The notes under the pieces were generated by a model that was given only the letters and a program-made list of their open reading frames with translations, did no database searches and was not told the DNA's origin. The position numbers and the translations under genes were made by a program. A DNA stretch of 38,045 nucleotides from Gammaproteobacteria bacterium (GTDB lineage Bacteria; Pseudomonadota; Gammaproteobacteria; Thiohalospirales; Thiohalospiraceae), in assembly GCA_015491735.1 (NCBI GenBank), contig WFVH01000074.1:1-38045 (forward strand). The letters are read 5' to 3'. Below, in pieces: positions 2,038-19,273 of the stretch. Each line of letters begins with the position of its first letter. Position 1 is the stretch's first letter.

Positions 2038-2915
2038 CGCAGTTCGCTCAGAAGCCGATCCATCATCTCCTCCGACTGGCGCAAATACCCCGCGCCGAAC
2101 AGGTGCAGATGATTGAGAACATGATAGAGATTGTATAGATCACGCCGTACGGCATACCCGCTGTCCAGTGGCCATGCTTCATTATAGGCGGAATAAAAAC
2201 TGGCGGGAAATCCGCCGAACAGCTCGGTCATGGCGATATCGGTCTCTCTGTCTCCATAGTAAACAGCCGGATCGAAGACTACCGGCCTGCCCGTCCGGGT
2301 GACCGCCTGGTTCCCGGACCAGAGATCGCCGTGCAACAGGGAGGCGGGCGGGGTGTAGGCTGCAAACAGCGCCGTGAAAGACTCCAAAAGCAGCTCGCCC
2401 TTCCGCTGCAGCCTCTCCCCGTGGCCATCCTCCCGCGCCAGCCGCAACTGATAACCCAGCCGCTGTTCCCGCCAGAAGGCCGGCCAGTCGGTGAATACAG
2501 GTGTGTTTATCTGGGGCGTGGAGCCGATGGCGCCATCCATCGACCAGCCATAGCCGGCGCGAAGGCAGCGATGCATCGCTGCCAGTTGCCGGCCCAGATG
2601 ATGAAAAACATCCCCTTTCCCGAATGAAAGATACTCCAGCGCCAGAAAAGCGCGGTTATCCGCCGTTCCCCGGCAGATGGGGGCGGGAACGGCCACTGTA
2701 TTGGTATCCATTATCTGCCGCAGCCCCGCGGATTCGGCGGCAAACATCGAGACAGCACCGGCATGATTCAACTTGACGAAAAAAAGCCGTCCATCCCTGC
2801 CCTTCAACCGCCATGCCTCATTGATACAGCCTCCGCTTACCACCGTACGCTCAGCGATGACATAGGGCGCCTCCGTCGCCATGCCGATTTTCCTTGCAAT
2901 CTCCTGCCAGATCAT
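2034..2915 (-). CDS. Fructosamine/ketosamine-3-kinase family protein
   Basis: A 293-residue protein of the fructosamine-3-kinase fold (aminoglycoside-phosphotransferase-like). It has an N-terminal SGGCINEAW segment, a lysine in FFVKLN (K48) for ATP binding, the catalytic loop HGDLWSGN (residues 195-202, D197 as base) and a metal-binding DPAVYYGDRE (215-224). Known members phosphorylate ketoamine adducts on glycated proteins; bacterial orthologues include E. coli YniA. The start codon overlaps the pelG stop by 4 bases and its own stop overlaps the acyltransferase start by 4 bases, so translation is likely coupled with the Pel genes. A role on an amino-sugar substrate tied to Pel, which contains GalNAc, is possible but not shown. 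Confidence 0.9.
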   Translation of the reverse strand: MIWQEIARKIGMATEAPYVIAERTVVSGGCINEAWRLKGRDGRLFFVKLNHAGAVSMFAAESAGLRQIMDTNTVAVPAPICRGTADNRAFLALEYLSFGKGDVFHHLGRQLAAMHRCLRAGYGWSMDGAIGSTPQINTPVFTDWPAFWREQRLGYQLRLAREDGHGERLQRKGELLLESFTALFAAYTPPASLLHGDLWSGNQAVTRTGRPVVFDPAVYYGDRETDIAMTELFGGFPASFYSAYNEAWPLDSGYAVRRDLYNLYHVLNHLHLFGAGYLRQSEEMMDRLLSELR

Positions 2916-4369
2916 CCGGCCCTTCCTCCCTTGTCTGCCGCCGTTTCCGCAGCGGGAACTGGCCGCCTGACCGACAAATTGTTGAGTACGAATGTTTGAT
3001 AAGGCAGATCGTTTACATAGCGAACCATCGCCAGATAGGTAATGACAAACGTCAGCAGCGTACTGGCAAAATAGCCGGAGCCATAGAAAGGGAATCCCAT
3101 ATGCAGGCTGACAGACGTGAATAGTGCATTGCTCACGAGGAAAAACCCCTGCAGCACGAGAACCAGACGGCGAAAGTCGAAATAGGTCAGAATAATCAGC
3201 TGCATGATCAGCAGCACATGAAAAAAAGCGCCCAGTACGCCATAGCGGAACATACCGATCTGCGTATAACTGAAACCAATCGCTTCATACAGCCGCGGTG
3301 ACAACAGCAGGAGTACGATGGCAATGCCCCCCTGCAACACCATCAGACTGCGCAGGCCGCCGCTCAGGCTCGAGGTGATCCGGTCAAGATTCTTTTGAAT
3401 CCGATGAAAATTGACATGTTTCTGTATATCACGATAAAAACGCAAGTAGCGCAGGAAAAAACGGGTCTCCAGCGTCAGCACGAACATCGCCAGCCCCGGA
3501 ATGATGGAAAGACAGGCAAGAAACATCGCTGCATCATAGTCCGGATAGGATGGCATGCCGGGGATGATAACCACTCTTTCCGGTGCATATAGCCACATAA
3601 TCCATTTATCCACCCAGATAGCCAGATTATAGAACAGACCGGCCAGCGCCAGCTCCCAGTAGCGACGAAAATAACGGACAAAACCGAACAGATGCCGGGC
3701 ATCGGCGCGGTACTCGGCGAAGATGTAGGCGATCAAGCCGAACAGTATCAACGCCAACCCCGACGAGAACCCCGCCAGCATGCCTGCCAACGAGCCGCCA
3801 CCGGTAAAAAACCAGGTCAGGAACAACGAAAGAGCCAAACCGGCGAGAAAGGTCGTGGAAACGACATGATAGGCTTTCAATGCGGTGAGATATACAGCCA
3901 CCACCCACAATGCGGCAATAAGGAAATAGTTGACTGCGGCCGCCATCCGGACGAGGGGTTCAAGCGCTACATACCAGAAGTAAAACAGAGCCACAAGGGG
4001 AAACTGGGAGAGAAACACCAGCGCCACCGATCCCAGCAGCATTCCTGGCACCCTGTCCAGCGGGCTTTCCCCCTGCGATGTTTTTTCGCCCGTGCTGAAC
4101 ACCAGATCGGCCAGGTAGCGGGTCACCACCATGAAGACAGGCGCGGTCAACGCGAGAGAAAACGCAAAATTATAGATAATGATGAGCCGAAATTCGGCTA
4201 CCGTCCGGTACCTGGCGATGTCACTTATCCAGACAATCAGGAACAGTGAAACAATGGTCATCACCCAGGGGCCGGCAGTTACCCAGGTCGAATAAAAGAA
4301 CCCTGAAACGATGCCAAGCAGATCGTCCCGTTGCACCAGCTTGCGTAGATGAAACCCGACGCCCGCCAT
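2912..4369 (-). CDS. pelG: Pel exopolysaccharide inner-membrane protein PelG
   Basis: A 485-residue polytopic membrane protein that starts MAGVGFHLRKLVQRDD, as PelG does. It has about twelve hydrophobic segments over nearly its whole length and a short charged C-terminus. PelG belongs to the MATE/Wzx-like polysaccharide transporter superfamily. With PelD, PelE and PelF it forms the inner-membrane complex that makes the GalNAc-rich Pel polymer and moves it to the periplasm. Its ATG overlaps the pelF stop by one base (TGATG). It is slightly longer than the Pseudomonas protein, mostly from a C-terminal tail rich in charged and small residues. Confidence 0.95.
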   Translation of the reverse strand: MAGVGFHLRKLVQRDDLLGIVSGFFYSTWVTAGPWVMTIVSLFLIVWISDIARYRTVAEFRLIIIYNFAFSLALTAPVFMVVTRYLADLVFSTGEKTSQGESPLDRVPGMLLGSVALVFLSQFPLVALFYFWYVALEPLVRMAAAVNYFLIAALWVVAVYLTALKAYHVVSTTFLAGLALSLFLTWFFTGGGSLAGMLAGFSSGLALILFGLIAYIFAEYRADARHLFGFVRYFRRYWELALAGLFYNLAIWVDKWIMWLYAPERVVIIPGMPSYPDYDAAMFLACLSIIPGLAMFVLTLETRFFLRYLRFYRDIQKHVNFHRIQKNLDRITSSLSGGLRSLMVLQGGIAIVLLLLSPRLYEAIGFSYTQIGMFRYGVLGAFFHVLLIMQLIILTYFDFRRLVLVLQGFFLVSNALFTSVSLHMGFPFYGSGYFASTLLTFVITYLAMVRYVNDLPYQTFVLNNLSVRRPVPAAETAADKGGRAG

Positions 4370-5922
4370 CAGACGACTCTCCCGGCGGCTGCGTCACTCC
4401 CGGGATGATGGCGGTAATACTCATACAGATCCCGGTAGGTCCGGTTGAAACAGCTCTTGTTGTAATACCGCCGTATGCGCATCCGGATACCTTCGCTGCA
4501 ACGCTGGTACCACTCCCGGTCAACAAGCAAACGCTCCACCGCCTGGGCCGTAGACGCAGGATTGGACAAGGGGGTAACAACGCCTCCTTGATGGGGAGGG
4601 TCGCCATCATGATGGTCAGACAGCAAAATTTCCCGGCAAGCACCGGCATCGGTTGCCACAACCGGAATGCCCGCTGCCCCCGCCTCCAGGATAATCAGCG
4701 GCTGGCCCTCGCTGATGCTTGTCAGCACAACGACATCTATCTTTCCCAGGTATTCGTCCACCGATACCTGGCCGGTAAAGGTAATGATATTCTCCAGCCC
4801 CATATGTTCTACCATCTGCTTGCACTCCGCATAATAGTGCGCCTCTTCCGTGGTGGAACCCATAATCAGGGCCTGGAGTTCCGGGATGCTCTCCTGCAGC
4901 ATGGCGCACGCCCTGATGAAGCTCTTCACATCCTTGATCTGCACCACCCGGCCGATGAGTGCAACGGTCGGTGGCCGGGGGGGGTGCTCCCGCGGTATCG
5001 CGGTATAGTGATCGATGTCAACCCCGTTGGGAATGACCATCATTTTGTTACGCTGCGCGCCATCCATGAGCTGGAAGAGCTGATTGCCCTCAAACAGGGT
5101 GATGATTTTGTCGGCTGCCTTATAACAGCAGCGGGAGCAGGCAGTGAAGGCCTTGACCCACATGTCGCTCAGTTGATGGGGGAGACGATGCACACTCAGG
5201 CCATCCTCTTCCATCTCGTGAAACCAGTCCGCCATTGCAATCTCGATGCGCCGCTCGTTGGTGTATATACCATGCTCGGTCAACAAAACCGGGCGTCCTG
5301 TCTCCAGCGCGGCCCGGGCGGCAAACAGCCCGGCATAGCCGGTCGAGGCCGAATGGTAGATCCGGGCCTGCGGCATCTCCGCCAGTAACACGGAGTAGAT
5401 ACCACCGAAGAGCACGCGCCAGGACCAAAAGTAGTCGAGAAACGACGCTTCCGGATAGGTGGCGTTGTACATTCTCACCAACATCTGCCAGGCATGAGAG
5501 GAGTCGAGCAGCACATTCGAACCAACCTCCGTCTTGCGGCCAGCCAGTATCGCCTGCACCTCCACCAAATCAGCCAGATCGCCTTCGGACAGCAGCCGCA
5601 GCATCGGCCCCTCGAGACGGTTCATCAGTTTTTTTTCTCCGGAGATGCGCCGTCTGCCTGCCGGAATCTGTTGTAACACAATCCGGGTGGTGCCCGATAC
5701 ATTGGCGGGAAGTTCATAACGGCAGGCCGGGTCAGCGCCGGGCGCTACCAGAAAGACCAGGTGGAAAGAGAGATGAGACTGTGCCTTTATCAGCTCGTGT
5801 GTCCATGATGAGACCCCTCCGGTCACAAAAGGATAACTCCCTTCCAAAATGAGGCAGACATCGGCCTGTGCCTTTGGTTTGCCCCTGTTCCGTTGTGCCG
5901 ATATTCCGGGTGCGTGGCTCAT
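4369..5922 (-). CDS. pelF: Pel polysaccharide glycosyltransferase PelF
   Basis: A 517-residue cytosolic GT-B (GT4 family) glycosyltransferase that polymerises the Pel chain from UDP-sugars. The N-terminal PelF-type domain carries ILEGSYPFVTGGVSSW near residues 25-40. The C-terminal Rossmann half holds GRVVQIKD with R325 and K330, and the EX7E motif EGQPLIILE with E405 and E413. As I recall it, these are the same positions as the functionally tested residues of Pseudomonas PelF, which makes the assignment firm. It lies 23 bases after pelE and overlaps pelG by one base. Synthesis is expected to depend on c-di-GMP through PelD. Confidence 0.97.
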   Translation of the reverse strand: MSHAPGISAQRNRGKPKAQADVCLILEGSYPFVTGGVSSWTHELIKAQSHLSFHLVFLVAPGADPACRYELPANVSGTTRIVLQQIPAGRRRISGEKKLMNRLEGPMLRLLSEGDLADLVEVQAILAGRKTEVGSNVLLDSSHAWQMLVRMYNATYPEASFLDYFWSWRVLFGGIYSVLLAEMPQARIYHSASTGYAGLFAARAALETGRPVLLTEHGIYTNERRIEIAMADWFHEMEEDGLSVHRLPHQLSDMWVKAFTACSRCCYKAADKIITLFEGNQLFQLMDGAQRNKMMVIPNGVDIDHYTAIPREHPPRPPTVALIGRVVQIKDVKSFIRACAMLQESIPELQALIMGSTTEEAHYYAECKQMVEHMGLENIITFTGQVSVDEYLGKIDVVVLTSISEGQPLIILEAGAAGIPVVATDAGACREILLSDHHDGDPPHQGGVVTPLSNPASTAQAVERLLVDREWYQRCSEGIRMRIRRYYNKSCFNRTYRDLYEYYRHHPGSDAAAGRVV

Positions 5923-5945: not shown

Positions 5946-7034
5946 TCAAAGCCAGGCCTGAAGCACGTCGGCCATTCGTTGATGCGCCCTCTCCGGTTCG
6001 CCGTCAAAGACCGGCCCGCAATCCTGCATCAGTTCACGCAACTCCCGATAACGATTCTGGCGGTACAGGCTCTCGGCGTACCAAAACAGAAGTTCCGGCT
6101 CTTTTGCCCCGGACTGTACTCTCTCTTTCAGCAGGGCCTCGGCCTCTTGCACGGCTCCCATCCGAATCAGCAGACGCCCCAGTCGCAGCGCGGCTGGACG
6201 GTTGCCCGGCTGCCGTTCGAGAATACGGCGATAGATCTGTCTGGCCTTCTGCCGGTTGAGCACTTCCCGATCCGGCTCCAACAGTCCGGTGAAGGCGTAG
6301 TCATCATGGAGTTTTGCCTGCCGTAACAGCAGTTCAACATCATCGGGTGCGCTGGCGGCTGCCCTGTCTGCCTGGATGACTTTTTTCAGAAACCCGTTTT
6401 CAATCCGCGCAATGGTCGAGGCGGCCATGACGCGAATGGAGCTGTCTTCATCCACCAGCGCGCGACGTAGCGGGCGGGAGAAATCGGGGCAAAAATGTTT
6501 GCTCATCAAGATAATGGCGTCCCTCTTCTGTTGCAGAGAACCGTTGGCAATAATATCGTGAAACGAATCCGGCGCCGCGGCTCCCTCCAGATGTTTGCGG
6601 GTATCGAGAAACTCGGCCAGCTCCTTGGCGCTACGCTGCTGCGGCTCTGGAAACAGGCCCGCATACCACTCTTCGAAACAGAGGGTAAAACGCCGGTACC
6701 CGGCGTGCAGAACAATGACCAGCAGCGTTCCCACCACCCCCAGCGGACCCAATACCGCGGTGGAAAACAGGAACAGATACAGGGTGCGGCGCATCACCCC
6801 CTGCGGGTGGTGGAACAGTTTATGCCACCAGAAGAACAGCGCTCCCAGCAGAAAAACATGCAGCAGGAGCGCCGTTCCCACGGACAGCGCTCCTTTCACC
6901 ATGGTGTACAAAAGCAGCAGCTCCATGGCCAGGGTAAGCAGTAGAACGGCTGCGAAATGGAGCCGGCAGTCCAATCTCTTGTCACCAGCGGCTGCGGGGA
7001 GCCGGGTGCCGGCTGTCGCCAAATCTGTCATCAT
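5946..7034 (-). CDS. pelE: Pel inner-membrane/TPR protein PelE
   Basis: About 362 residues from ATG 7034 (a second ATG follows at once). Two hydrophobic segments near residues 25-80 (LLLTLAMELLLLYTMV and a segment after it) are followed by another at about 100-130 and a soluble helical part with tetratricopeptide-like repeats (RQIYRRILERQPGNRPAALRLGRLL and similar). This matches PelE, which binds PelD and helps recruit PelF to the membrane. The frame stays open for 43 more codons upstream, but that part lies inside pelD, so I place the start 29 bases after the pelD stop. No strong ribosome binding site is visible there. Confidence 0.9.
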   Translation of the reverse strand: MMTDLATAGTRLPAAAGDKRLDCRLHFAAVLLLTLAMELLLLYTMVKGALSVGTALLLHVFLLGALFFWWHKLFHHPQGVMRRTLYLFLFSTAVLGPLGVVGTLLVIVLHAGYRRFTLCFEEWYAGLFPEPQQRSAKELAEFLDTRKHLEGAAAPDSFHDIIANGSLQQKRDAIILMSKHFCPDFSRPLRRALVDEDSSIRVMAASTIARIENGFLKKVIQADRAAASAPDDVELLLRQAKLHDDYAFTGLLEPDREVLNRQKARQIYRRILERQPGNRPAALRLGRLLIRMGAVQEAEALLKERVQSGAKEPELLFWYAESLYRQNRYRELRELMQDCGPVFDGEPERAHQRMADVLQAWL

Positions 7035-7062
7035 TCGAACCGGTTCACTCAACCCGATACCG

Positions 7063-8445
7063 CTACGGGGTATGCAGATCGTCAATCCGCACCACCCATG
7101 AAGCCTCGGGCACCCCGTTGCCGCCTCCGCCCGCCAGCGCCGCCAGCAGACGCTCTTCCACAATCCGGGCGTTTCGTGCCGGTGTGGCGGGCAGAATAAT
7201 GGTGAACTCCCGGCCGTTGCCCCGGCGATCGAAAGCCAGATCCGTCGTGCGCAAAACCTGTTTGACCGCTTTGCTCAGCACGACCGGAACCCGGGAACGG
7301 GCGGCTTCCGGCAACTCATCATGGTTCTGCAGTGCGATATCGATCTGCGCCAGGGCAAACCCGTGCCGCCGTGCAAGGGATGTCAAGAAAGCGATCTGGC
7401 GAACATAGTAGCTGGAAGAGAGAAACAGCCCGCTGTCATCGATGACGCAGTTTTTCTTCACCGCATGAAACCGTTTTGCATTGCCGTAAACGGTTCCAAC
7501 CCATTCGCAGATTACTTCAAAGTTTTTGATGTTCGTCCAGCCCAGCTCCATAAAATCCAGCGCTTCGATTTTCAGCATGCCCATAACTTCACCGGTTTCT
7601 GTATTGATCAAGGGGCCGGCCAGAACACCCTGCTGATCCAGCGCCCGCTCGCCATTTTCGTCAGTGACACTCAACAGGCGCCGCCGGGCAACGATTTCCC
7701 GGAACAGGGGATGATCTGCCCCGATGATACGCAAGTAGTTGTCCTCCCCGGACCAACCTGTATGCACCGCCGCCTCCAGTACATCCCGGTTCAACATGAA
7801 TACAGAGAACTTTTGCGGATTCATCACCGCACGGACCATGTCCATGATGCTGAACAGAACCTTTCCTGAATCGAGTTGCTCGAGCGACTTTACCGCCTGA
7901 TACATCGAGATAACGGTACGCATCTGGCCCGCAACCCTTACTTCGAGATCCGCCTTGACCTGCTGCTGACGCCGATAGGCATCGGCGATGGTTTTTTCGT
8001 TCGTATGCGCCTCCTCCAGCGCCAACCGCAGCCGATCCCGTTCTTTCAAATGGCGCATTAGCAACTCCCCCAACACGATGGCGGCCATAAACCACATCAA
8101 GGGGCGGTAAACGATACTGAACAGATAGTCATAGAGATCCTCGTCCAGCGCCTGTTCGGGCATACCACCCACCAGCAGCACGACGGTCGCCACCATCGCC
8201 GCAAAGACACCTTCCGCAGTGCCATATTGAACCGTTATCAGCAACACCGCCAGCCAGAACGGATGAGGGGCAGCGTTCCAGAACGCATTCCCATCGTATA
8301 CCAGCCTGTCGAGCAGAACGGCCAGCGCGAAAAACAGTGCGATCTCCAGAAGCGCCGAACATCTCATCCCCCACAGGCACTTCCCCCTGCCAGACAGCGG
8401 CTCACGGCTGCTTGCGCTCGAAGATAACAGCATCCCGCCTTTCAT
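7063..8445 (-). CDS. pelD: c-di-GMP receptor PelD
   Basis: A 460-residue inner-membrane protein. Transmembrane segments fill roughly residues 28-130, then come a coiled region, a GAF domain (about 165-310) and a degenerate GGDEF domain. The usual GGDEF signature is replaced (GNGREF near 409-414), so it should not make c-di-GMP. An inhibitory-site-type RxxD motif, R399-T-T-D402, is retained as expected for the c-di-GMP-binding PelD family. Binding of c-di-GMP by PelD activates Pel synthesis post-translationally. The ATG overlaps the upstream pelC stop by 4 bases. Length is close to the Pseudomonas protein (455 residues). Confidence 0.95.
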   Translation of the reverse strand: MKGGMLLSSSASSREPLSGRGKCLWGMRCSALLEIALFFALAVLLDRLVYDGNAFWNAAPHPFWLAVLLITVQYGTAEGVFAAMVATVVLLVGGMPEQALDEDLYDYLFSIVYRPLMWFMAAIVLGELLMRHLKERDRLRLALEEAHTNEKTIADAYRRQQQVKADLEVRVAGQMRTVISMYQAVKSLEQLDSGKVLFSIMDMVRAVMNPQKFSVFMLNRDVLEAAVHTGWSGEDNYLRIIGADHPLFREIVARRRLLSVTDENGERALDQQGVLAGPLINTETGEVMGMLKIEALDFMELGWTNIKNFEVICEWVGTVYGNAKRFHAVKKNCVIDDSGLFLSSSYYVRQIAFLTSLARRHGFALAQIDIALQNHDELPEAARSRVPVVLSKAVKQVLRTTDLAFDRRGNGREFTIILPATPARNARIVEERLLAALAGGGGNGVPEASWVVRIDDLHTP

Positions 8446-9068
8446 GGACTGCTTTCCCCCATTTGCCGCGAGAGACTCTGAACCGTAGACATGACGGCCT
8501 GCTGTGCAACCCGGCTCGCACTATCCCGGCCGAGATAAACACTGCCGGTACGCGAAGTGCTGACTGCCCACAGAACCGCTCCGTCGGTGCGAGTCAAACG
8601 CATCGTAATGCCAACGACCGCCTGTTTGCGCAGGCCATACCGATAGCCATACTCCATCACACTGCCACTCAAAACGGCATCAGCCCCTGCTGCCCGCGCC
8701 GCCGCCACCGGGTCGCCAATCCGGCGATTGCCACCTGACTGCGAAGCTCCTCCCGATGAAAGCTCCTGTATGACAAACAGCCTCTCTTTGTACAGCTCGG
8801 TTGCAGCCAGTCTGGCGATGTACCCCCCTGCCCCCGGGTGAGCGGTATAGTTTTGAAAAGGGACGATCAGGACACGCATATCCGGCTGCGGTGGCGGAGC
8901 ACTGCCAATGTACTGCCGCTGAAGATGAGACCCGGAAGAGCAGCCGGCAAGCAGAAGCACGGCCGCAACGATTAACCCGGCAACCCGACAGGTTGACCCC
9001 GGCGGCCATGTAAACAAAAGAACAGGCATCCTGTTTCCGGCCGGTTTGTCGCCCCGCTTGACCATCAC
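8442..9068 (-). CDS. pelC: Pel outer-membrane lipoprotein PelC
   Basis: A 208-residue predicted lipoprotein with lipobox LLAGC (C43), followed by a PelC/CsgG-like domain: MRVLIVPFQNYTAHPGAG, a GADAVLSGSVMEYGYRYG segment and MRLTRTDGAVLWAVS. Known PelC forms a ring on the periplasmic face of the outer membrane around the PelB channel and guides the cationic polymer. It starts at ATG 9068, overlapping the upstream paralogue by 4 bases; an internal ATG 13 codons later would give a more typical signal peptide. It lies next to pelD as in other pel operons, so it is the better candidate for the orthologous copy. Both halves of the expected fold are complete. Confidence 0.9.
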   Translation of the reverse strand: MMVKRGDKPAGNRMPVLLFTWPPGSTCRVAGLIVAAVLLLAGCSSGSHLQRQYIGSAPPPQPDMRVLIVPFQNYTAHPGAGGYIARLAATELYKERLFVIQELSSGGASQSGGNRRIGDPVAAARAAGADAVLSGSVMEYGYRYGLRKQAVVGITMRLTRTDGAVLWAVSTSRTGSVYLGRDSASRVAQQAVMSTVQSLSRQMGESSP

Positions 9069-9856
9069 GGTGCGGCCTCCTGCTTCCTGCTGTTAACAGG
9101 GGCGAATGGATGGCTCTTTCCCTCTGCAGAATCATCCGGTGAGAAGGGAGAGCAGCTCATCTCCTCCGCCTCCAACTGTTCGACGGCCCCGACCAGGGCA
9201 GCGACGATCCGTTGTCCAACCTGACTGAGGCTCTCACGGTTGAAAAAGCCGCGGCCAACAACTCCGCGATTTGCGGCCCAAACGACTTTTCCATCGCACG
9301 CTCGCACCAGACGCACACTCAACCCGACCACCGGCTCTTCCCGCAACCCGTGCTGATAACGATATTCGGTAACACTGCCCAACAGCACCCCGTCCACGTT
9401 GAGTGTGTGCGCAAGCTCCCGCACTTTCTGCGTTGGCAGGGTATCCGCCGCCATCCCGTACTGCAGCCGCTGTTCCCGATGCGGCGCCTCGCGAATGGAA
9501 AAGGTGTGCTGCCGATACAGCTCGGTGATCATCAACCGTGTCATAACCTTTCCAGCCTTGGGGTGATCGGTGAGGTTTTCAAACGGAAGAACCGCCACGT
9601 GGAAGGAGGCCGTACCCGCCCCCTGCCCCCGCTTTTCTGCCACAACCGGAACCTTGCCGGCAGATGCGCAAGCGGAAAGGATCGACAGAAAAACCAGCGC
9701 CGCCCCGAGTGGACGTATCCTTTTTTCGACACCGGTCGCTATTCGCCCGGCAACCCTGTATATCGTATTCAGCCGCCGTGTGCCGATCTGTTGCAAGGCG
9801 CCACAACGCAAAGCGGTGGCGGCCCACATGTTCAGTTGCCAGGTCAATAAAATCAT
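9065..9856 (-). CDS. Second PelC-like outer-membrane lipoprotein
   Basis: A 263-residue PelC paralogue. The conserved order is the same as in the next gene: HVAVLPFENLTDHPKAGKVM, then NVDGVLLGSVTEYRYQHGLREEPVVG, then VRLVRACDGKVVWAAN. The lipobox is LSAC at C63. Starting at ATG 9856, which has a good AAGGGGG site 5 bases upstream, leaves about 45 residues before the signal-peptide core, unusually long for a lipoprotein; no in-frame ATG or GTG lies nearer. It carries a longer C-terminal tail than its neighbour. Overlap with pelC means both are made together, and they may form a mixed ring. It could be a specialised partner for the split PelB barrel. Confidence 0.85.
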   Translation of the reverse strand: MILLTWQLNMWAATALRCGALQQIGTRRLNTIYRVAGRIATGVEKRIRPLGAALVFLSILSACASAGKVPVVAEKRGQGAGTASFHVAVLPFENLTDHPKAGKVMTRLMITELYRQHTFSIREAPHREQRLQYGMAADTLPTQKVRELAHTLNVDGVLLGSVTEYRYQHGLREEPVVGLSVRLVRACDGKVVWAANRGVVGRGFFNRESLSQVGQRIVAALVGAVEQLEAEEMSCSPFSPDDSAEGKSHPFAPVNSRKQEAAP

Positions 9857-9911: not shown

Positions 9912-11522
9912 TCAGAAACGCCACAGCAAATAACCTCCCGCCCGTGTAGAACGTATGTATTCTCCTTGATAAGGCCCCGCGCTGTAGATGGTTTTCAAAC
10001 CGATCTCCACTCCCGAACGGTACTCGTAAACCAGGTTGACAACGACAAAAGGGCCACCTACATCATTGCGTACGTCATAACTTGCTCCGGCTCCAGTCTC
10101 ATAGCGCAGATAATCACTCAGCAGATCAAGCCACAGGGCATCAAGCGTATGAACCTGGCGGGAGACGATGGGCAACGGATGGAATTCAAGTTCAGCATAA
10201 CGCCGGGCATCCACGAAAGTCTGCTGTTCCAGATCCAACTGGTAACCCACGCTCAAGCGGGGCGAGGCTTCACTCAGCAACAAGCGGGCGCCGAGTTTTA
10301 TCACCTGGCTGCCAGCCACATTGGCATCATCCTCGATACCGTAGTTCCGCAGTGAAACGGAAATCCAGCTTGAAAGCATTCCATCTTCAGGCAAACGCCG
10401 GCCACTCCGGCCCGGCCGCTCCCACCCCACCGTCAGGCTATCGAGTGTCCCTCCGTTCACCACGCCCTCAACATAGTCCCAGGCTGGCACCCCGATGGCT
10501 GCATCGATCCATGCCCGCTGCCCGGCATTCAGTCGTTGTGAATAACCGGCGCGCATGCCGGGCGGATTTCCATTCCCGCCGAACAGCGACAGCCGCGCCC
10601 GGGCTGCCCATTCAAAATAGCGTTGCAGTTCCAGTTCGAAATAGTCCCTTTCCCCTTCGAAGAAACCCGGCGGGCCGCTGGCATGGCGAAACATGCCATC
10701 CCGTACGGAGCGCTTTTCATAGGCGACACCCAGCCGGGTTTTCTCACCCAGAAAGCCGTAGCCTGATAACCGGGAGATAGACTGCCAATCGGCATCATGA
10801 CGCTGTTGCCAATCCATATCGAGGCGGAAGCGGGAACCGTGGTCGGACAGCAGCCGGGATCTGGCCGCAATCACCGCCTGACGCTCTCCCGCCAGTTGCA
10901 ACGCCCGGCTGTAGTAACTGGCCGCTTTGGGCCACTGCCCAAGACGGGCTTCGATATCCGCAATCTCCACCAGCAGTTCGCTGTTGTCCGGATACTGGCC
11001 AAGGGATGCATCCAGTATCCTGCGGGCGGAAAACAGATCACCCCCGTCGGCCAGCCATGCCGCCCGCAACCGCTCCAGGCGAAACGCCGCCTTTTCCTGC
11101 TGTGACAACCGATCACCGCGAATCGCAGCAGAGGCCGTCGTGCCCCTGGCAGGGAGCAGCGCCACGGAAACCCGGTGCGCGTCCTCCTCACTTTCAACGG
11201 CAAAAACGACATCCCGTTTGGCGTGGAGCAGCAAGCGGTCATACCCGGTATTGCTCCACTCGATCCAGGCGTTTGCCCGGGCTGATATCTCCGCCGGCAA
11301 AGCGGGGGGAAGGGGGCGGGAAAACTGCAAGAGCAGCGCTCTTCCATCCGCTTCATGCCGCACTTCTACCGGCTCGTTCCAACTGAAAAGGAGGCGCAGG
11401 TGGCTATCACCCGATTCGATATGCAACCGTGCCGTCCGGTCACTGCAAAATACCGGTGAGGCTGAAAGCAGCGGCATCAGAGCCAGTACAGCCAGCGGAA
11501 CAATGGTGCCGTGCCAGCGCAT
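9912..11522 (-). CDS. PelB C-terminal half: secreted TPR/outer-membrane beta-barrel protein
   Basis: A 536-residue protein with its own Sec signal peptide (about residues 1-26: hydrophobic LAVLALMPLLSASPVF). A beta-rich, AMIN-like region follows (about 30-125), then a few tetratricopeptide-like helices (150-235, with LEQYPDNSELL-like spacing), then a region of alternating hydrophobic strands to the end. It closes with LLWRF, the terminal aromatic typical of outer-membrane barrels. In Pseudomonas this barrel is the C-terminal part of one PelB of about 1,190 residues. Here it is separate, starting 6 bases after the stop of the N-terminal half; GGAGGTGA lies over the last codons of that gene. 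It should form the Pel export pore. Confidence 0.85.
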   Translation of the reverse strand: MRWHGTIVPLAVLALMPLLSASPVFCSDRTARLHIESGDSHLRLLFSWNEPVEVRHEADGRALLLQFSRPLPPALPAEISARANAWIEWSNTGYDRLLLHAKRDVVFAVESEEDAHRVSVALLPARGTTASAAIRGDRLSQQEKAAFRLERLRAAWLADGGDLFSARRILDASLGQYPDNSELLVEIADIEARLGQWPKAASYYSRALQLAGERQAVIAARSRLLSDHGSRFRLDMDWQQRHDADWQSISRLSGYGFLGEKTRLGVAYEKRSVRDGMFRHASGPPGFFEGERDYFELELQRYFEWAARARLSLFGGNGNPPGMRAGYSQRLNAGQRAWIDAAIGVPAWDYVEGVVNGGTLDSLTVGWERPGRSGRRLPEDGMLSSWISVSLRNYGIEDDANVAGSQVIKLGARLLLSEASPRLSVGYQLDLEQQTFVDARRYAELEFHPLPIVSRQVHTLDALWLDLLSDYLRYETGAGASYDVRNDVGGPFVVVNLVYEYRSGVEIGLKTIYSAGPYQGEYIRSTRAGGYLLWRF

Positions 11523-11528
11523 AGCCTG

Positions 11529-13667
11529 CTATTCACCTCCGCCGGCTGTCAGGATGTCGGCCGCCAGCTCGGCATGACCCGTCTCGATCAGAATGGCGGC
11601 AAAATCCGCGCGCAGCTCCGGGTTGTCAGGCTCGGCCGACAACAGCTTCCGGTAGGCGAAGATCGCATTGTCATACTCGCCAAGACGATAGAGAGCCTGG
11701 GCGCGAATAACAGCCTTCGATACATCCAGCTTCTGCTCCGCCGCAAGCAGCTCGATTACTTGACGATAGTAGGGCTGCGCCTGCTGATGCTCGTTTCGTT
11801 TTGTCAGCAGCTCCGCGTAATAGAAATTGCTTTCGGCATCACCGCGATTACGTTCAAGGTAATAACCAAGAAGGAAAAAAGCCTCTTTTCCCAGACCGCT
11901 GCGGTAAGCGATCGAACCCAGCCTGCGTGGCAGTTCAGGATCATCGGGCGCCAGGGCGAGCAGACGGTCATTGGCTTCGAGAACCAAATCGGAAAAACCC
12001 GCCTGACCGGCAAAGCGCATGTAACTGAACAGCTGTGCTGGCTGCTGGCTCTCGTCAATCGCCCGGGCCAATACGGGGCGCAGCCGGGCATAGTCCCGCT
12101 TGCGCTGCAGCACCTCGATCTGAAAATCAACCGATCTGTCGTTGTACCCCGCCAGCACGAGGACTTGCTGGCTAAGCCTGAGCGCACGCTCGGGAGCTCC
12201 CGCATCGAGCAATCGCCGCAACCAGGCAAGACGCTGCTCTCCCCGGGCTTCGCGCGCCCGTTTCTCCAGCCACTGCAACTCGCGCGATCCGGGATGGGGA
12301 CCCCACAAATACAGCAGTTGGCTCACTTCGGCACTCTCGGCGGGAGCATCGGCGGCCAGTTGCAGAAATACCCGTTCAGCCAAAGGCTTGTCGCCAAGCT
12401 GCAGTGCGCGGAATGCCAACGCACGCCTCTCTTCCTGGCTCAGTTCAAGCTCTTTCAGTTGCAGCCGGAGCAGCGCCAGTTGTTCCCTGTAACGCCCTGT
12501 CCCTTGTAACGCGGCTGCATAGCGGTCACTCATCCCTTTTTTCTCTTCGCCGCTTAGATCGGTGCGCTTGAGCTGTTTTTCCCAAAAAGAGAAAAGCGCC
12601 TGCCGGCGGCCCGCTTCGTGCAGCAGGGACTCGTAGCGGTGAGTAACCGACTCCCGCTCCTCGACAGGGGTATCCACATTTTCTATTCTGCCCAGCAACC
12701 AGGCCAGCAATGTCTGCCAGCGACCGTTTTCATGCAGCGCGGTTTCGTAGCGCTGCATCAGCCTCCCGCGCTGCTGTGGGTCCAGATCGGAGCGTTGCAA
12801 CTGCCGTTGCAGAAAGGCCAGCCGCTCATCTTCCCGCCCAAGCTGGCGCAGCCTGTTTTCGTACCGGTAGCTGATGGCCTCTCTCTCTTCGTCGCTCAAA
12901 TCAGGACGGAGGAGCTGACGCTCCCAAAAAGCGATCAGTTGCTGATAACGGTTGGCGCCGGCCAGCGCCCGCTCGTAATAGATCGCCCATTTGCCACCGA
13001 GATCGCCGTATCCCTGCACATAGGCGATGGCGCTGTCATACCGTTCCAGATCGAGAAAGAGTGTTACCAGAAACTCCCTTGCCCGCAAATTGAAAGCGGC
13101 AGGATGCTCCCTGGCGAGCCGCCGCAACACCTCGGTCGCGGCGTTTCTGGCGCCCTCGGCCGCCAGCAGGTAGGCCAGGTCGAGATAGTCGTGAGGCTTG
13201 GCTTCATACTCCTCCACGATACGCTTCAGCACCTCCAGTTGCTGGTGATACCGGCCCCCTGTGTTATACAGCCGGGAGAGATTGCGCAGGGCTTGCTCTG
13301 AAGGTTGCAGCTCGGTCTGCTTTTCCAGACTGTCCATGTAGTCCTGGGGCCGCCGGGCCTGTCGATAGTATTCGCTCAACAGCAGCCGGGCTTCGATGTT
13401 GCCCGGATTTTCCTGAACGAAGTTCTCCATCAACACAAGCGCCTTGTCCATCTCTCCATAGACGAGATACAGCTCGGCAAGCGGCAGCACGACGTTGACG
13501 GACATCACTCCCTGTTGCAGCAGCGTTTCGTATCCCGCGCGCGCCGCCGTATACTGCTGGTTCTTGAAGCGTATCAGCGCCAGCTCGGTTGGCCGGGGGT
13601 AGGCCAGATAGCCGCCAATCAACCCCAGCATCGCCACCAGTACGACGGGTAGATGAGTGCTTTTCAC
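11529..13667 (-). CDS. PelB N-terminal half: membrane-anchored periplasmic repeat protein
   Basis: About 712 residues from GTG 13667. A TTG at 13691 is the alternative; the frame stays open to 13871, but that would overlap pelA by 110 bases. An N-terminal transmembrane helix (PVVLVAMLGLIGGYLAY, about residues 7-23) is followed by TPR-like helices throughout. Residues about 247-436 form five tandem 38-residue repeats (see separate entry), with more canonical TPR spacing on both sides. It matches the periplasmic helical part of PelB, which contacts PelA and PelC and passes the polymer to the barrel. It ends at TAG 11529-11531, just before the barrel gene. Start choice is uncertain; the split itself is clear. 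Confidence 0.85.
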   Translation of the reverse strand: MKSTHLPVVLVAMLGLIGGYLAYPRPTELALIRFKNQQYTAARAGYETLLQQGVMSVNVVLPLAELYLVYGEMDKALVLMENFVQENPGNIEARLLLSEYYRQARRPQDYMDSLEKQTELQPSEQALRNLSRLYNTGGRYHQQLEVLKRIVEEYEAKPHDYLDLAYLLAAEGARNAATEVLRRLAREHPAAFNLRAREFLVTLFLDLERYDSAIAYVQGYGDLGGKWAIYYERALAGANRYQQLIAFWERQLLRPDLSDEEREAISYRYENRLRQLGREDERLAFLQRQLQRSDLDPQQRGRLMQRYETALHENGRWQTLLAWLLGRIENVDTPVEERESVTHRYESLLHEAGRRQALFSFWEKQLKRTDLSGEEKKGMSDRYAAALQGTGRYREQLALLRLQLKELELSQEERRALAFRALQLGDKPLAERVFLQLAADAPAESAEVSQLLYLWGPHPGSRELQWLEKRAREARGEQRLAWLRRLLDAGAPERALRLSQQVLVLAGYNDRSVDFQIEVLQRKRDYARLRPVLARAIDESQQPAQLFSYMRFAGQAGFSDLVLEANDRLLALAPDDPELPRRLGSIAYRSGLGKEAFFLLGYYLERNRGDAESNFYYAELLTKRNEHQQAQPYYRQVIELLAAEQKLDVSKAVIRAQALYRLGEYDNAIFAYRKLLSAEPDNPELRADFAAILIETGHAELAADILTAGGGE
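12360..12929 (-). repeat. Five tandem 38-residue repeats inside the PelB N-terminal half
   Basis: Translated on the minus strand, five units of 38 residues follow without gaps. Their shared pattern is F-W-x-x-Q-L-x-R-x-D-L-S-x-E-E, then R-Y-E-x-x-L, then G-R. Units 1, 2 and 4 are closest to one another (starts FWERQLLRPDL, FLQRQLQRSDL, FWEKQLKRTDL). Unit 3 is more diverged (WLLGRIENVDT) and unit 5 is degenerate. The period is longer than the 34 residues of a normal TPR. Confidence 0.8.
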
Positions 13668-13761
13668 TGCAACATTGACCCGGCAATCCAATAGACATGC
13701 CCCGTGACAACGGGCATGGCATCGGTCAAGGTCAAGGTACGAAGCTGCAGAGAATCCTGGC

Positions 13762-14607
13762 TCACATTCGTGGTTCCGGAATGATGCGATCCAGGGTGAT
13801 GGTTGCCACATAGGGGACGAATCCGTTTGCACGCTGTATCCGGTAAATGGCAGCGATACCTTCCGGATCATCAGGATTCCAGTAATCCAGCGTCAGCACT
13901 TTCAACGCCGGATTTTTCCCGGCCGCCTGTTTCAACCACGCTACCTGCCGCCGGTAATCCGCTTGCGGCACCCGTTGATATATTTTTTTTTCGAAATCGT
14001 AACCGGTATATACCGACTCTCCCAATACGATATCGATATCGCTGGCGACTCGGGGCAGAATCTCATAGCCCCGGTTCAGCATGATCTTGATCTGCGGGTA
14101 GTTCCGGCGGATGGCGCGTACCAGGCGCACAGCTGCATCACTCATCCCGCGGTAACGCCGGGGGTACTGGCGCTCCAGATGCAACGGACTGTCCACCGTA
14201 TCAAGGAAGACACCATCGAACCCCCGGCGCAACAGTGCAGGAATCAGACGGGAGATGATCCGTTCCGTCCAACGGCGTTCACGAATATCTATCGTATAGC
14301 TGCCCCGCCAGTGCGGGTTCTCGCCCAACAGCAACCCTCCGTTCTTCACTTCGTCGAAATAGTCGCGGTGCCGTTCGGCTTCACCCAGGCTTAGATAGCC
14401 CAGCAGGATTTTTCCCTGTTGTGTCAGAGAGGAGATATCGGGGTGATAATCGCGGTCGAGAACCAGGAGAGTATAGGCATCGAAATCCGCTGGCGCCGCC
14501 TTGTCTGAATAGTAGACGACCCAGCGAACATCTGCCCTGATCGGCGGCTCCGCCGCGAGAAGACCGGAAAACAGCAGAAAACAGAAAAAGAGAAAACGCC
14601 TCAGCAC
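13762..14607 (-). CDS. pelA: PelA hydrolase domain only (GH166-type), short PelA
   Basis: About 281 residues from GTG 14607, giving signal peptide MLRRFLFFCFLLFSGLLAA. An ATG at 14673 and the frame to 14817 are alternatives. The whole mature protein matches the N-terminal glycoside-hydrolase domain of PelA: WVVYYSD, LGYLSLGEAE, GFDGVFLDTVD with D136, IKIMLNRGYE, and VLGESVY with E197, the likely acidic catalytic pair. It ends right after the TIM-barrel (PYVATITLDRII). Pseudomonas PelA is 948 residues and continues into a deacetylase domain, which is absent here. The hydrolase cuts Pel and sets free polymer levels. It is the first gene of the operon, 94 bases before the chosen pelB start. Deacetylation must be supplied elsewhere if Pel here is cationic. 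Confidence 0.88.
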   Translation of the reverse strand: MLRRFLFFCFLLFSGLLAAEPPIRADVRWVVYYSDKAAPADFDAYTLLVLDRDYHPDISSLTQQGKILLGYLSLGEAERHRDYFDEVKNGGLLLGENPHWRGSYTIDIRERRWTERIISRLIPALLRRGFDGVFLDTVDSPLHLERQYPRRYRGMSDAAVRLVRAIRRNYPQIKIMLNRGYEILPRVASDIDIVLGESVYTGYDFEKKIYQRVPQADYRRQVAWLKQAAGKNPALKVLTLDYWNPDDPEGIAAIYRIQRANGFVPYVATITLDRIIPEPRM

Positions 14608-18178: not shown

Positions 18179-19273
18179 TTGAAAATTCCGAAAATCACCT
18201 TTCTAAAAACATGTTGTATTGCTTTCTCTTTGTTTTCTGCAAACGTATCAGCAGCCCTTTTGACCTATACATTTGATGATGGCACAAAAAGTCAACTCAA
18301 CGCTGTAGATATATTAGGAAAGTTCAATCAACAAGGCGTCATTGGGCCGATTGCCAGAGTTTACGAAGGATTTATGAACGATAGACACAAACTCACTCTT
18401 GAAGATCTGCGCTACTTCAGTCAACAGGGATGGGAAGTAGCCTCCCACAGCTACTCGCATCGCAGTCTGACACGAATTCCCCTTACCTACAACGACGAAG
18501 TGGTTTCGGGTTGGGCGCCCCTTCAAGGTAGCTCCAATGTGTATACAGCAAGTTATAATTATGGTGAATTAACGGCCCTGTTGCAGAAAGACAGTTATCT
18601 GAAAAAGGTAAAATCCCTGGACGAAATAAACTCCAGGCCGGGCAGTTATTTCTTTGATAAGGATGGCGGTATTTTGTACGTCAACCCTGAAGAGGGGATT
18701 GATCCATTAACACATGAGATACGGGCCGGATCTGCTGAGCGTGAACTAGAATACTCAAAAGAGATTTTTGAAAACGAAGGTTTCGAGATAAACAGCTTTG
18801 TAGCTCCATTCAATCGCTGGAGTGATGATCTCGCCACATTGGCCGAGAAGTATTATGACACAGCAGTGATTGGAAAGGGACTGACTTGGCCCAACAAACT
18901 ACCGCTTGAAAGCAACTATTTTCTCAAGAGGATTGGGATTAATGGCAATATTAGCATGGAAGAGATAGAAGCGCGGGTAGAGGAAGCCATCCTAAATAAT
19001 GAGTGGCTTATTCTAACATTTCATAAAATCGAAGACTGCAAAGACAAGACCACTTGTTCGTCTGACTGGTCAGCCAAGGATTTGGAAAAGTTTGCTTCCT
19101 GGGTTTCGACTCAAGACATAGATGTCGTGACGTTGAAAGAGGGAGTGGCTATAGCCGCTGTGCCGATACCCGCTTCTGTACTGATGTTTCTTTCAGGGTT
19201 GGGGTTCATTGCCTTCTACTCGAAATATAACCGAACGTGGGTGGCATCTACGAGGTTGAAAAAAGTGGCATAG
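18179..19273 (+). CDS. Secreted polysaccharide deacetylase with VPxPA-type C-terminal sorting signal
   Basis: 364 residues from TTG 18179, supported by GGAG 8 bases upstream and a clear signal peptide (about 1-25, NVSA/A). It has NodB/CE4 motifs: TFDDG (31-35), HSYSH (90-94), APFNRW (209-214) and LTFHK (279-283). They hold the catalytic aspartate and the two metal-binding histidines. Residues about 100-185 are an insertion, unusual between motifs 2 and 3, with GSYFFDKDGGILYVNPEEG resembling a short motif of parallel beta-helix proteins. The C-terminus has VPIPASVLMFLSGLGF (328-343) plus a basic tail, as in PEP/VPLPA-CTERM proteins processed by exosortase systems. It removes acetyl groups from an extracellular or periplasmic glycan. 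AT-rich composition unlike its neighbours suggests transfer. No exosortase lies in the window. Confidence 0.85.
   Translation: MKIPKITFLKTCCIAFSLFSANVSAALLTYTFDDGTKSQLNAVDILGKFNQQGVIGPIARVYEGFMNDRHKLTLEDLRYFSQQGWEVASHSYSHRSLTRIPLTYNDEVVSGWAPLQGSSNVYTASYNYGELTALLQKDSYLKKVKSLDEINSRPGSYFFDKDGGILYVNPEEGIDPLTHEIRAGSAERELEYSKEIFENEGFEINSFVAPFNRWSDDLATLAEKYYDTAVIGKGLTWPNKLPLESNYFLKRIGINGNISMEEIEARVEEAILNNEWLILTFHKIEDCKDKTTCSSDWSAKDLEKFASWVSTQDIDVVTLKEGVAIAAVPIPASVLMFLSGLGFIAFYSKYNRTWVASTRLKKVA

Follow-up and report, generated by a model that had tools for sequence, protein, structure and literature searches.

The pel locus and its surroundings

The window, the whole stretch of 38,045 nucleotides analysed here (contig WFVH01000074.1 of a gammaproteobacterium of the family Thiohalospiraceae), carries a pel operon on the reverse strand, with the following features at and near the operon:

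13762–14607, minus strand: pelAh, a stand-alone PelA hydrolase gene; 281 aa with an N-terminal hydrophobic leader; homology to 5tcb and GH114
13664–13765, minus strand: linker at the position of the deacetylase gene of congeners; 33-codon ORF with no significant deacetylase similarity in any frame
11529–13667, minus strand: PelB, TPR half, as a separate gene; 712 aa; TPR matches; 57–63 % identity to congener genes in the same place
9912–11522, minus strand: PelB, beta-barrel half, as a separate gene; 536 aa; 29–31 % identity to an Azospirillum protein weakly matching the PelB C-terminal barrel (PF24604)
9065–9856, minus strand: PelC-like lipoprotein 1; homologous to the gene in the PelC position in Azospirillum and Caballeronia
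8442–9068, minus strand: PelC-like lipoprotein 2, tandem copy
7063–8445, minus strand: PelD, GAF domain (GAF_3), in the position of the c-di-GMP receptor; 43 % identity to the GAF protein at the equivalent place in the Azospirillum operon
5946–7163, minus strand: PelE, TPR protein between pelD and pelF; 34–39 % identity to the Azospirillum counterparts
4369–5922, minus strand: PelF glycosyltransferase; NF038011, 414 bits against a cut-off of 100
2912–4369, minus strand: PelG transporter; PF16933, E 1.4e-120
18179–19273, plus strand: CE4-like deacetylase with leader and weak PEP-CTERM-like tail; PF01522, 24.3 bits; DUF2334, HfsH and weak VPLPA-CTERM matches

The identities of PelF and PelG are certain, and pelB, pelC, pelD, pelE, pelF and pelG are all present and adjacent, as in a Gram-negative pel operon, with PelB encoded by two genes. 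Each of the nine pel genes that remain is an open reading frame, free of stop codons and frameshifts, and together they span more than 10 kb. Separate genes for the TPR and barrel halves of PelB (9912–13667) are common to the window, its genus and Azospirillum. The two tandem PelC-like lipoproteins (8442–9856), from which a mixed PelC ring is possible, also occur in congeners with an intact locus, while one was seen in Azospirillum. Beside pelG (194–2915) lie genes for a fructosamine kinase and two acyltransferases of the LpxL/HtrB type, of which the kinase and one acyltransferase keep this position across the genus. The pel locus has the same neighbours in the window and the congeners, PriA at one end and the fructosamine kinase and acyltransferase at the other, and the loci are thus orthologous.

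A stand-alone PelA hydrolase

The pelAh ORF extends from a GTG start at 14607 to a TGA stop at 13764–13762. The PelA hydrolase domain structure 5tcb matches residues 31–274 of its product (E 2e-23; runner-up structure TM1410, 8e-11), and the GH114 match is of similar strength (2.1e-23). A glutamate is found in the window protein at the position that is glutamate in 5tcb and alanine in the otherwise identical chain 5tsy, and this catalytic residue is invariant in the alignment of stand-alone hydrolases (profile A2). Homology across the barrel and the catalytic glutamate place the protein among the GH166 PelA hydrolases, as a predicted endo-alpha-1,4-N-acetylgalactosaminidase. No CE21 domain lies C-terminal to the hydrolase, and the next gene, the TPR half of PelB, begins with a GTG at 13667.

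In the window genus, Azospirillum and the Magnetococcales, PelA is split into a hydrolase gene and a stand-alone gene of approximately 740 codons directly downstream. A profile built from eight such stand-alone deacetylase-type proteins (A1) aligns with residues 254–874 of the solved PelA 9CGY (E 3.6e-122), which comprise the three domains other than the hydrolase. For example, Azospirillum thermophilum encodes a 293-aa hydrolase, followed immediately by a 755-aa protein annotated as hypothetical, the split PelB, PelC and PelD-G. The 755-aa protein can be aligned with the C-terminal region of the full-length Caballeronia PelA and contains the motifs HIDGDGW and SHTWTHP. These matches to the C-terminal domains of PelA indicate that PelA is a product of two genes in this clade. 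Among the 33 public-genome loci with a pelAh relative, which in part represent the congeners of the window again, a deacetylase gene lies near the hydrolase in 31/31 that could be checked, directly after it in all except L047, where it precedes the hydrolase by a few kb; the best match in L068 extends over roughly half of the profile. The remaining two loci are uncheckable, as L073 ends within the hydrolase gene and a run of N follows the hydrolase in L071 (Azospirillum sp. TSH64), which was for that reason rejected as a second case without a deacetylase.

The window hydrolase shares 51–68 % identity over its full length with those of the congeners and Azospirillum. Its C-terminus (...PEPR) falls at the same residue as in the congeners, and at most one or two residues from that of the Azospirillum proteins. 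On the basis of this shared end point, pelAh encodes a complete member of a split PelA rather than a shortened PelA, the missing part being a separate gene. The preliminary description, in which PelA was reduced to its hydrolase domain, was thus correct in that only the hydrolase is present and no deacetylase domain accompanies it. The protein is, however, not truncated, and the history implied is the wrong one, since PelA consists of two genes in this clade and one of these was lost.

Absence of the deacetylase gene

Profile A1 yielded no match to a PelA-type (CE21) deacetylase at E ≤ 10 in the genome of the window species (2.43 Mb in 101 contigs, rated 100 % complete), while the same search returned full-length matches in five congeners. 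With single-sequence queries against this genome, the best match of the Azospirillum deacetylase had an E-value of 0.08 and the Caballeronia PelA retrieved only pelAh. A full PelA, with hydrolase and CE21 domains in the same protein or operon, was thus not found by either approach. The preliminary description had considered the deacetylase domain to be missing and had named a PelA deacetylase elsewhere in the genome as the finding that would overturn it; the search bore out the absence in the protein, the operon and the genome.

The pelAh stop and the pelB start are separated by 94 bp. The GTG of the linker ORF overlaps the pelAh stop (ATGTGA) and its TGA overlaps the GTG of pelB. Putative deacetylase remnants in the linker and nearby intergenic DNA were rejected, as the best ungapped score equalled the 95 % level of shuffled sequences and the best tblastn match (E 0.028) had inconsistent positions.

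The deacetylase gene is present in 5/7 congeners. It lies between pelAh and pelB in G001, G003, G004 and G007, while G002 has a full-length copy in the same position (in locus L045, assigned to G002 by matching sequences). Only a C-terminal deacetylase fragment was found in G005. Among the window species and its congeners, the window species alone appears to have lost the gene from an otherwise intact operon, and this comparison makes a lineage-specific loss well supported and highly probable.

The sister species, G006, has also lost its pel deacetylase, but differs from the window species in that pelAh, pelB and pelC are lost or broken as well, with visible remnants. Trees of rpoB and the flanking genes unite the two species with a support of about 0.8; the rpoB sequences of G001 and G002 are partial and their branches unreliable. 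The stretch between PriA and pelD in G006 (G006:C82; L022, 10240–11110) is only about 0.9 kb long and retains remnants of pelAh (E 5e-6) and the deacetylase (E 2.8e-6), each with an internal stop codon, and of PelC (E 0.001), with an intact pelDEFG downstream. G006 thus represents a pel operon caught in the loss of its periplasmic half. Since a deacetylase remnant is retained, the G006 lineage still possessed the gene, and the window species probably lost it in a separate event.

Constraint on the remaining pel genes

Between the window species and G003, the first and second codon positions of the pel genes change at 0.29–0.70 of the rate of the third, and constraint has thus acted on these genes. 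Compared with other congener pairs, these ratios are higher in every case but one (PelG with G007), while in the same comparison two of the three flanking genes have lower ratios and the third a similar one. All pel genes of the window species have a somewhat raised non-synonymous share in comparison with the flanking genes, which is compatible with weakening constraint.

At sites invariant in all other species, Azospirillum included, the window species has changed at 21/162 positions in PelB-TPR, where other species have at most four changes. The corresponding counts are 10/115 for PelAh, 10/94 for the PelB barrel and 11/150 for PelD, while those for PelF (8/205) and PelG (3/170) are ordinary. 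Tajima counts for PelB-TPR against G003 are 59:29 (chi2 10.2) with A. thermophilum as outgroup, and balanced for PelF and PelG. With A. lipoferum the PelB-TPR excess is smaller (47:25, chi2 6.7), and against this second outgroup it is marginal overall (chi2 3.5–6.9) and derives from a single lineage. Only Azospirillum outgroups were used, G007 having been rejected since it inflates the window-species count for every pel gene. With nine proteins tested, the rate excess of PelB-TPR, the P. aeruginosa counterpart of which binds the deacetylase (PMC12022489), is suggestive. In PelC, 11/11 acidic positions conserved with Azospirillum are kept, which does not suggest that the export path has been re-tuned for a neutral polymer. 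The net charge of PelC, considered as a possible sign of a neutral polymer, is higher in the window species (+8/+9), as it also is in PelF and the fructosamine kinase.

Fate of the operon

Comparison of the loci shows an ancestral order of pelAh, a stand-alone CE21-type deacetylase, pelB-TPR, pelB-barrel, pelC and pelDEFG, from which the deacetylase gene was lost in the window species, leaving a short linker that may maintain translational coupling between pelAh and pelB. As the nine other genes are intact and constrained, the operon would most likely still work in an altered form. PelDEFG would make an alpha-1,4-GalNAc polymer, which PelAh would cut and PelB and PelC would export, with no PelA-type deacetylation. 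Unless the missing activity is supplied by an unrelated deacetylase, the polymer would either carry more acetyl groups and less positive charge than the Pel of Pseudomonas or be shorter, since the hydrolase prefers acetylated Pel.

A remodelled pel operon that still works without a PelA-type deacetylase is given about an even chance of being correct. It is favoured because nine genes have remained open over more than 10 kb, whereas the appearance of decay can be seen in G006, and the changes in PelB-TPR, the counterpart of the deacetylase-binding protein, alongside ordinary PelF and PelG lend it support. It is weakened by the raised non-synonymous share of all pel genes and by the marginal, single-lineage nature of the PelB-TPR excess. 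It is also unexpected, because P. aeruginosa and B. cereus no longer produce detectable Pel once the deacetylase is lost (PMC13254593). A more specific form, in which a Gram-negative pel operon would secrete a fully acetylated, neutral GalNAc polymer through PelB and PelC, with PelB-TPR re-adapted after the loss of its partner, is considered unlikely.

The preliminary description had envisaged two outcomes, an acetylated Pel or a separate enzyme. Both are retained as readings, but a third, decay of the pathway, had been omitted and is realistic given G006. The deacetylase would then have been an early loss in this branch of the genus, with Pel no longer made and the other genes persisting as unbroken relics. 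This is a serious, if rather doubtful, alternative. It draws on the sister species, where pelAh, the deacetylase and pelC survive only as remnants ahead of the intact pelDEFG, on the requirement for deacetylation in two model species (PMC13254593) and on the raised non-synonymous share. However, other pel genes should not have survived a long neutral period unbroken, and nine persist with no stop codon or frameshift, while a very recent simple deletion is unsupported, as the linker resembles neither end of the deacetylase gene.

Another deacetylase may instead have taken over, most plausibly the species-specific protein encoded at 18179–19273, although this is improbable. The gene is found only in the species without the CE21 gene, and its product has a leader and exceeds the PF01522 cut-off (24.3 against 23.1 bits), with the metal motifs TFDDG and SHSYSH (HxxxH). 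Furthermore, unrelated deacetylases serve Pel in Gram-positive bacteria (CE26 PelADA; PMC13254593). However, although only 3.6 kb from pelAh, it is transcribed in the opposite direction outside the operon, with PriA intervening. There is no sequence relation to CE21, profile A1 finding nothing in this genome, and among solved structures it matches other deacetylases of the NodB type best (E 0.003 or worse). The PEP-CTERM-like tail, a sub-threshold VPLPA-CTERM match (TIGR03370, 14.6 bits against a cut-off of 25.35), together with an exosortase encoded in the genome, points to another envelope system. The gene is also compositionally foreign (GC 0.43–0.46, surroundings 0.56–0.62), and homologues were found in 0/13 relatives and 0/368 other genomes of the class; it is a recent acquisition coinciding with the CE21 loss, and no more. 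An AlphaFold2 model from the single sequence reached a pLDDT of 37, too low to be of use. The designation of the protein as the nearest candidate in the preliminary description holds for a CE4-like deacetylase with a leader close to the operon, but nothing ties it to Pel. Six other PF01522 proteins are encoded in the genome, including PgaB (857 bits) and an XrtA-type deacetylase. Orthologues in the genus exist for 5/6, which are therefore not new replacements, and the loci searched yielded no orthologue for the sixth (C31, 369 aa).

Beside pel, this genome encodes at least two more exopolysaccharide systems, represented by PgaB (PNAG; L003, G000:C23) and a large TPR protein that includes an internal deacetylase domain and weakly matches the PgaA barrel (L006/L007, G000:C31).

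It is very improbable that the deacetylase gene exists and was skipped during contig building, for while the result is known from a draft assembly of 101 contigs and not from reads, no copy or fragment occurs anywhere in it, the 94-bp junction matches neither gene end and contains no Ns, and the linker ORF overlaps both of its neighbours.

Comparison with known pel systems

In Pseudomonas and Bacillus, the synthesis and export of Pel are considered to depend on deacetylation. An operon lacking only the deacetylase, alongside relatives that keep it and a sister that has lost half of the operon, amounts to a natural deletion experiment, through which the need for deacetylation in Pel export becomes testable outside laboratory mutants. 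If true, secretion of a neutral polymer would contradict the rule that Pel production needs deacetylation. The split arrangement further shows that hydrolase and deacetylase can go missing independently. Rearrangement of pelA and fission of pelB have been described (PMC7112194), while the literature, as far as this was covered, yielded no account of a split PelA in Gram-negative bacteria or of a pel operon without a deacetylase.

In Gram-negative bacteria, PelA has been described as a single protein whose active sites are conserved and whose full-length homologues occur in many phyla (PMC12022489). The window hydrolase is homologous over its length to that of PelA in P. aeruginosa and P. thermotolerans (GH166 and CE21; PDB 5TCB, 9CGY), and the same PelB-G functions are encoded. 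However, PelA is one four-domain protein in those species, while it is encoded by separate genes in the window clade and is present as the hydrolase only in the window genome. The split-PelA operons of Azospirillum, the Magnetococcales and the window genus share the gene order, equal-length hydrolase and split PelB of the window, but all of those that could be checked keep a deacetylase between pelAh and pelB. Similarly, hydrolase and deacetylase are separate genes in Gram-positive bacteria (PMC7112168, PMC13254593), as in the pelDEADAFG operons of Bacillus cereus and Streptococcus. There, the CE26 deacetylase belongs to the operon core and the hydrolase is accessory, whereas the reverse is seen in the window.
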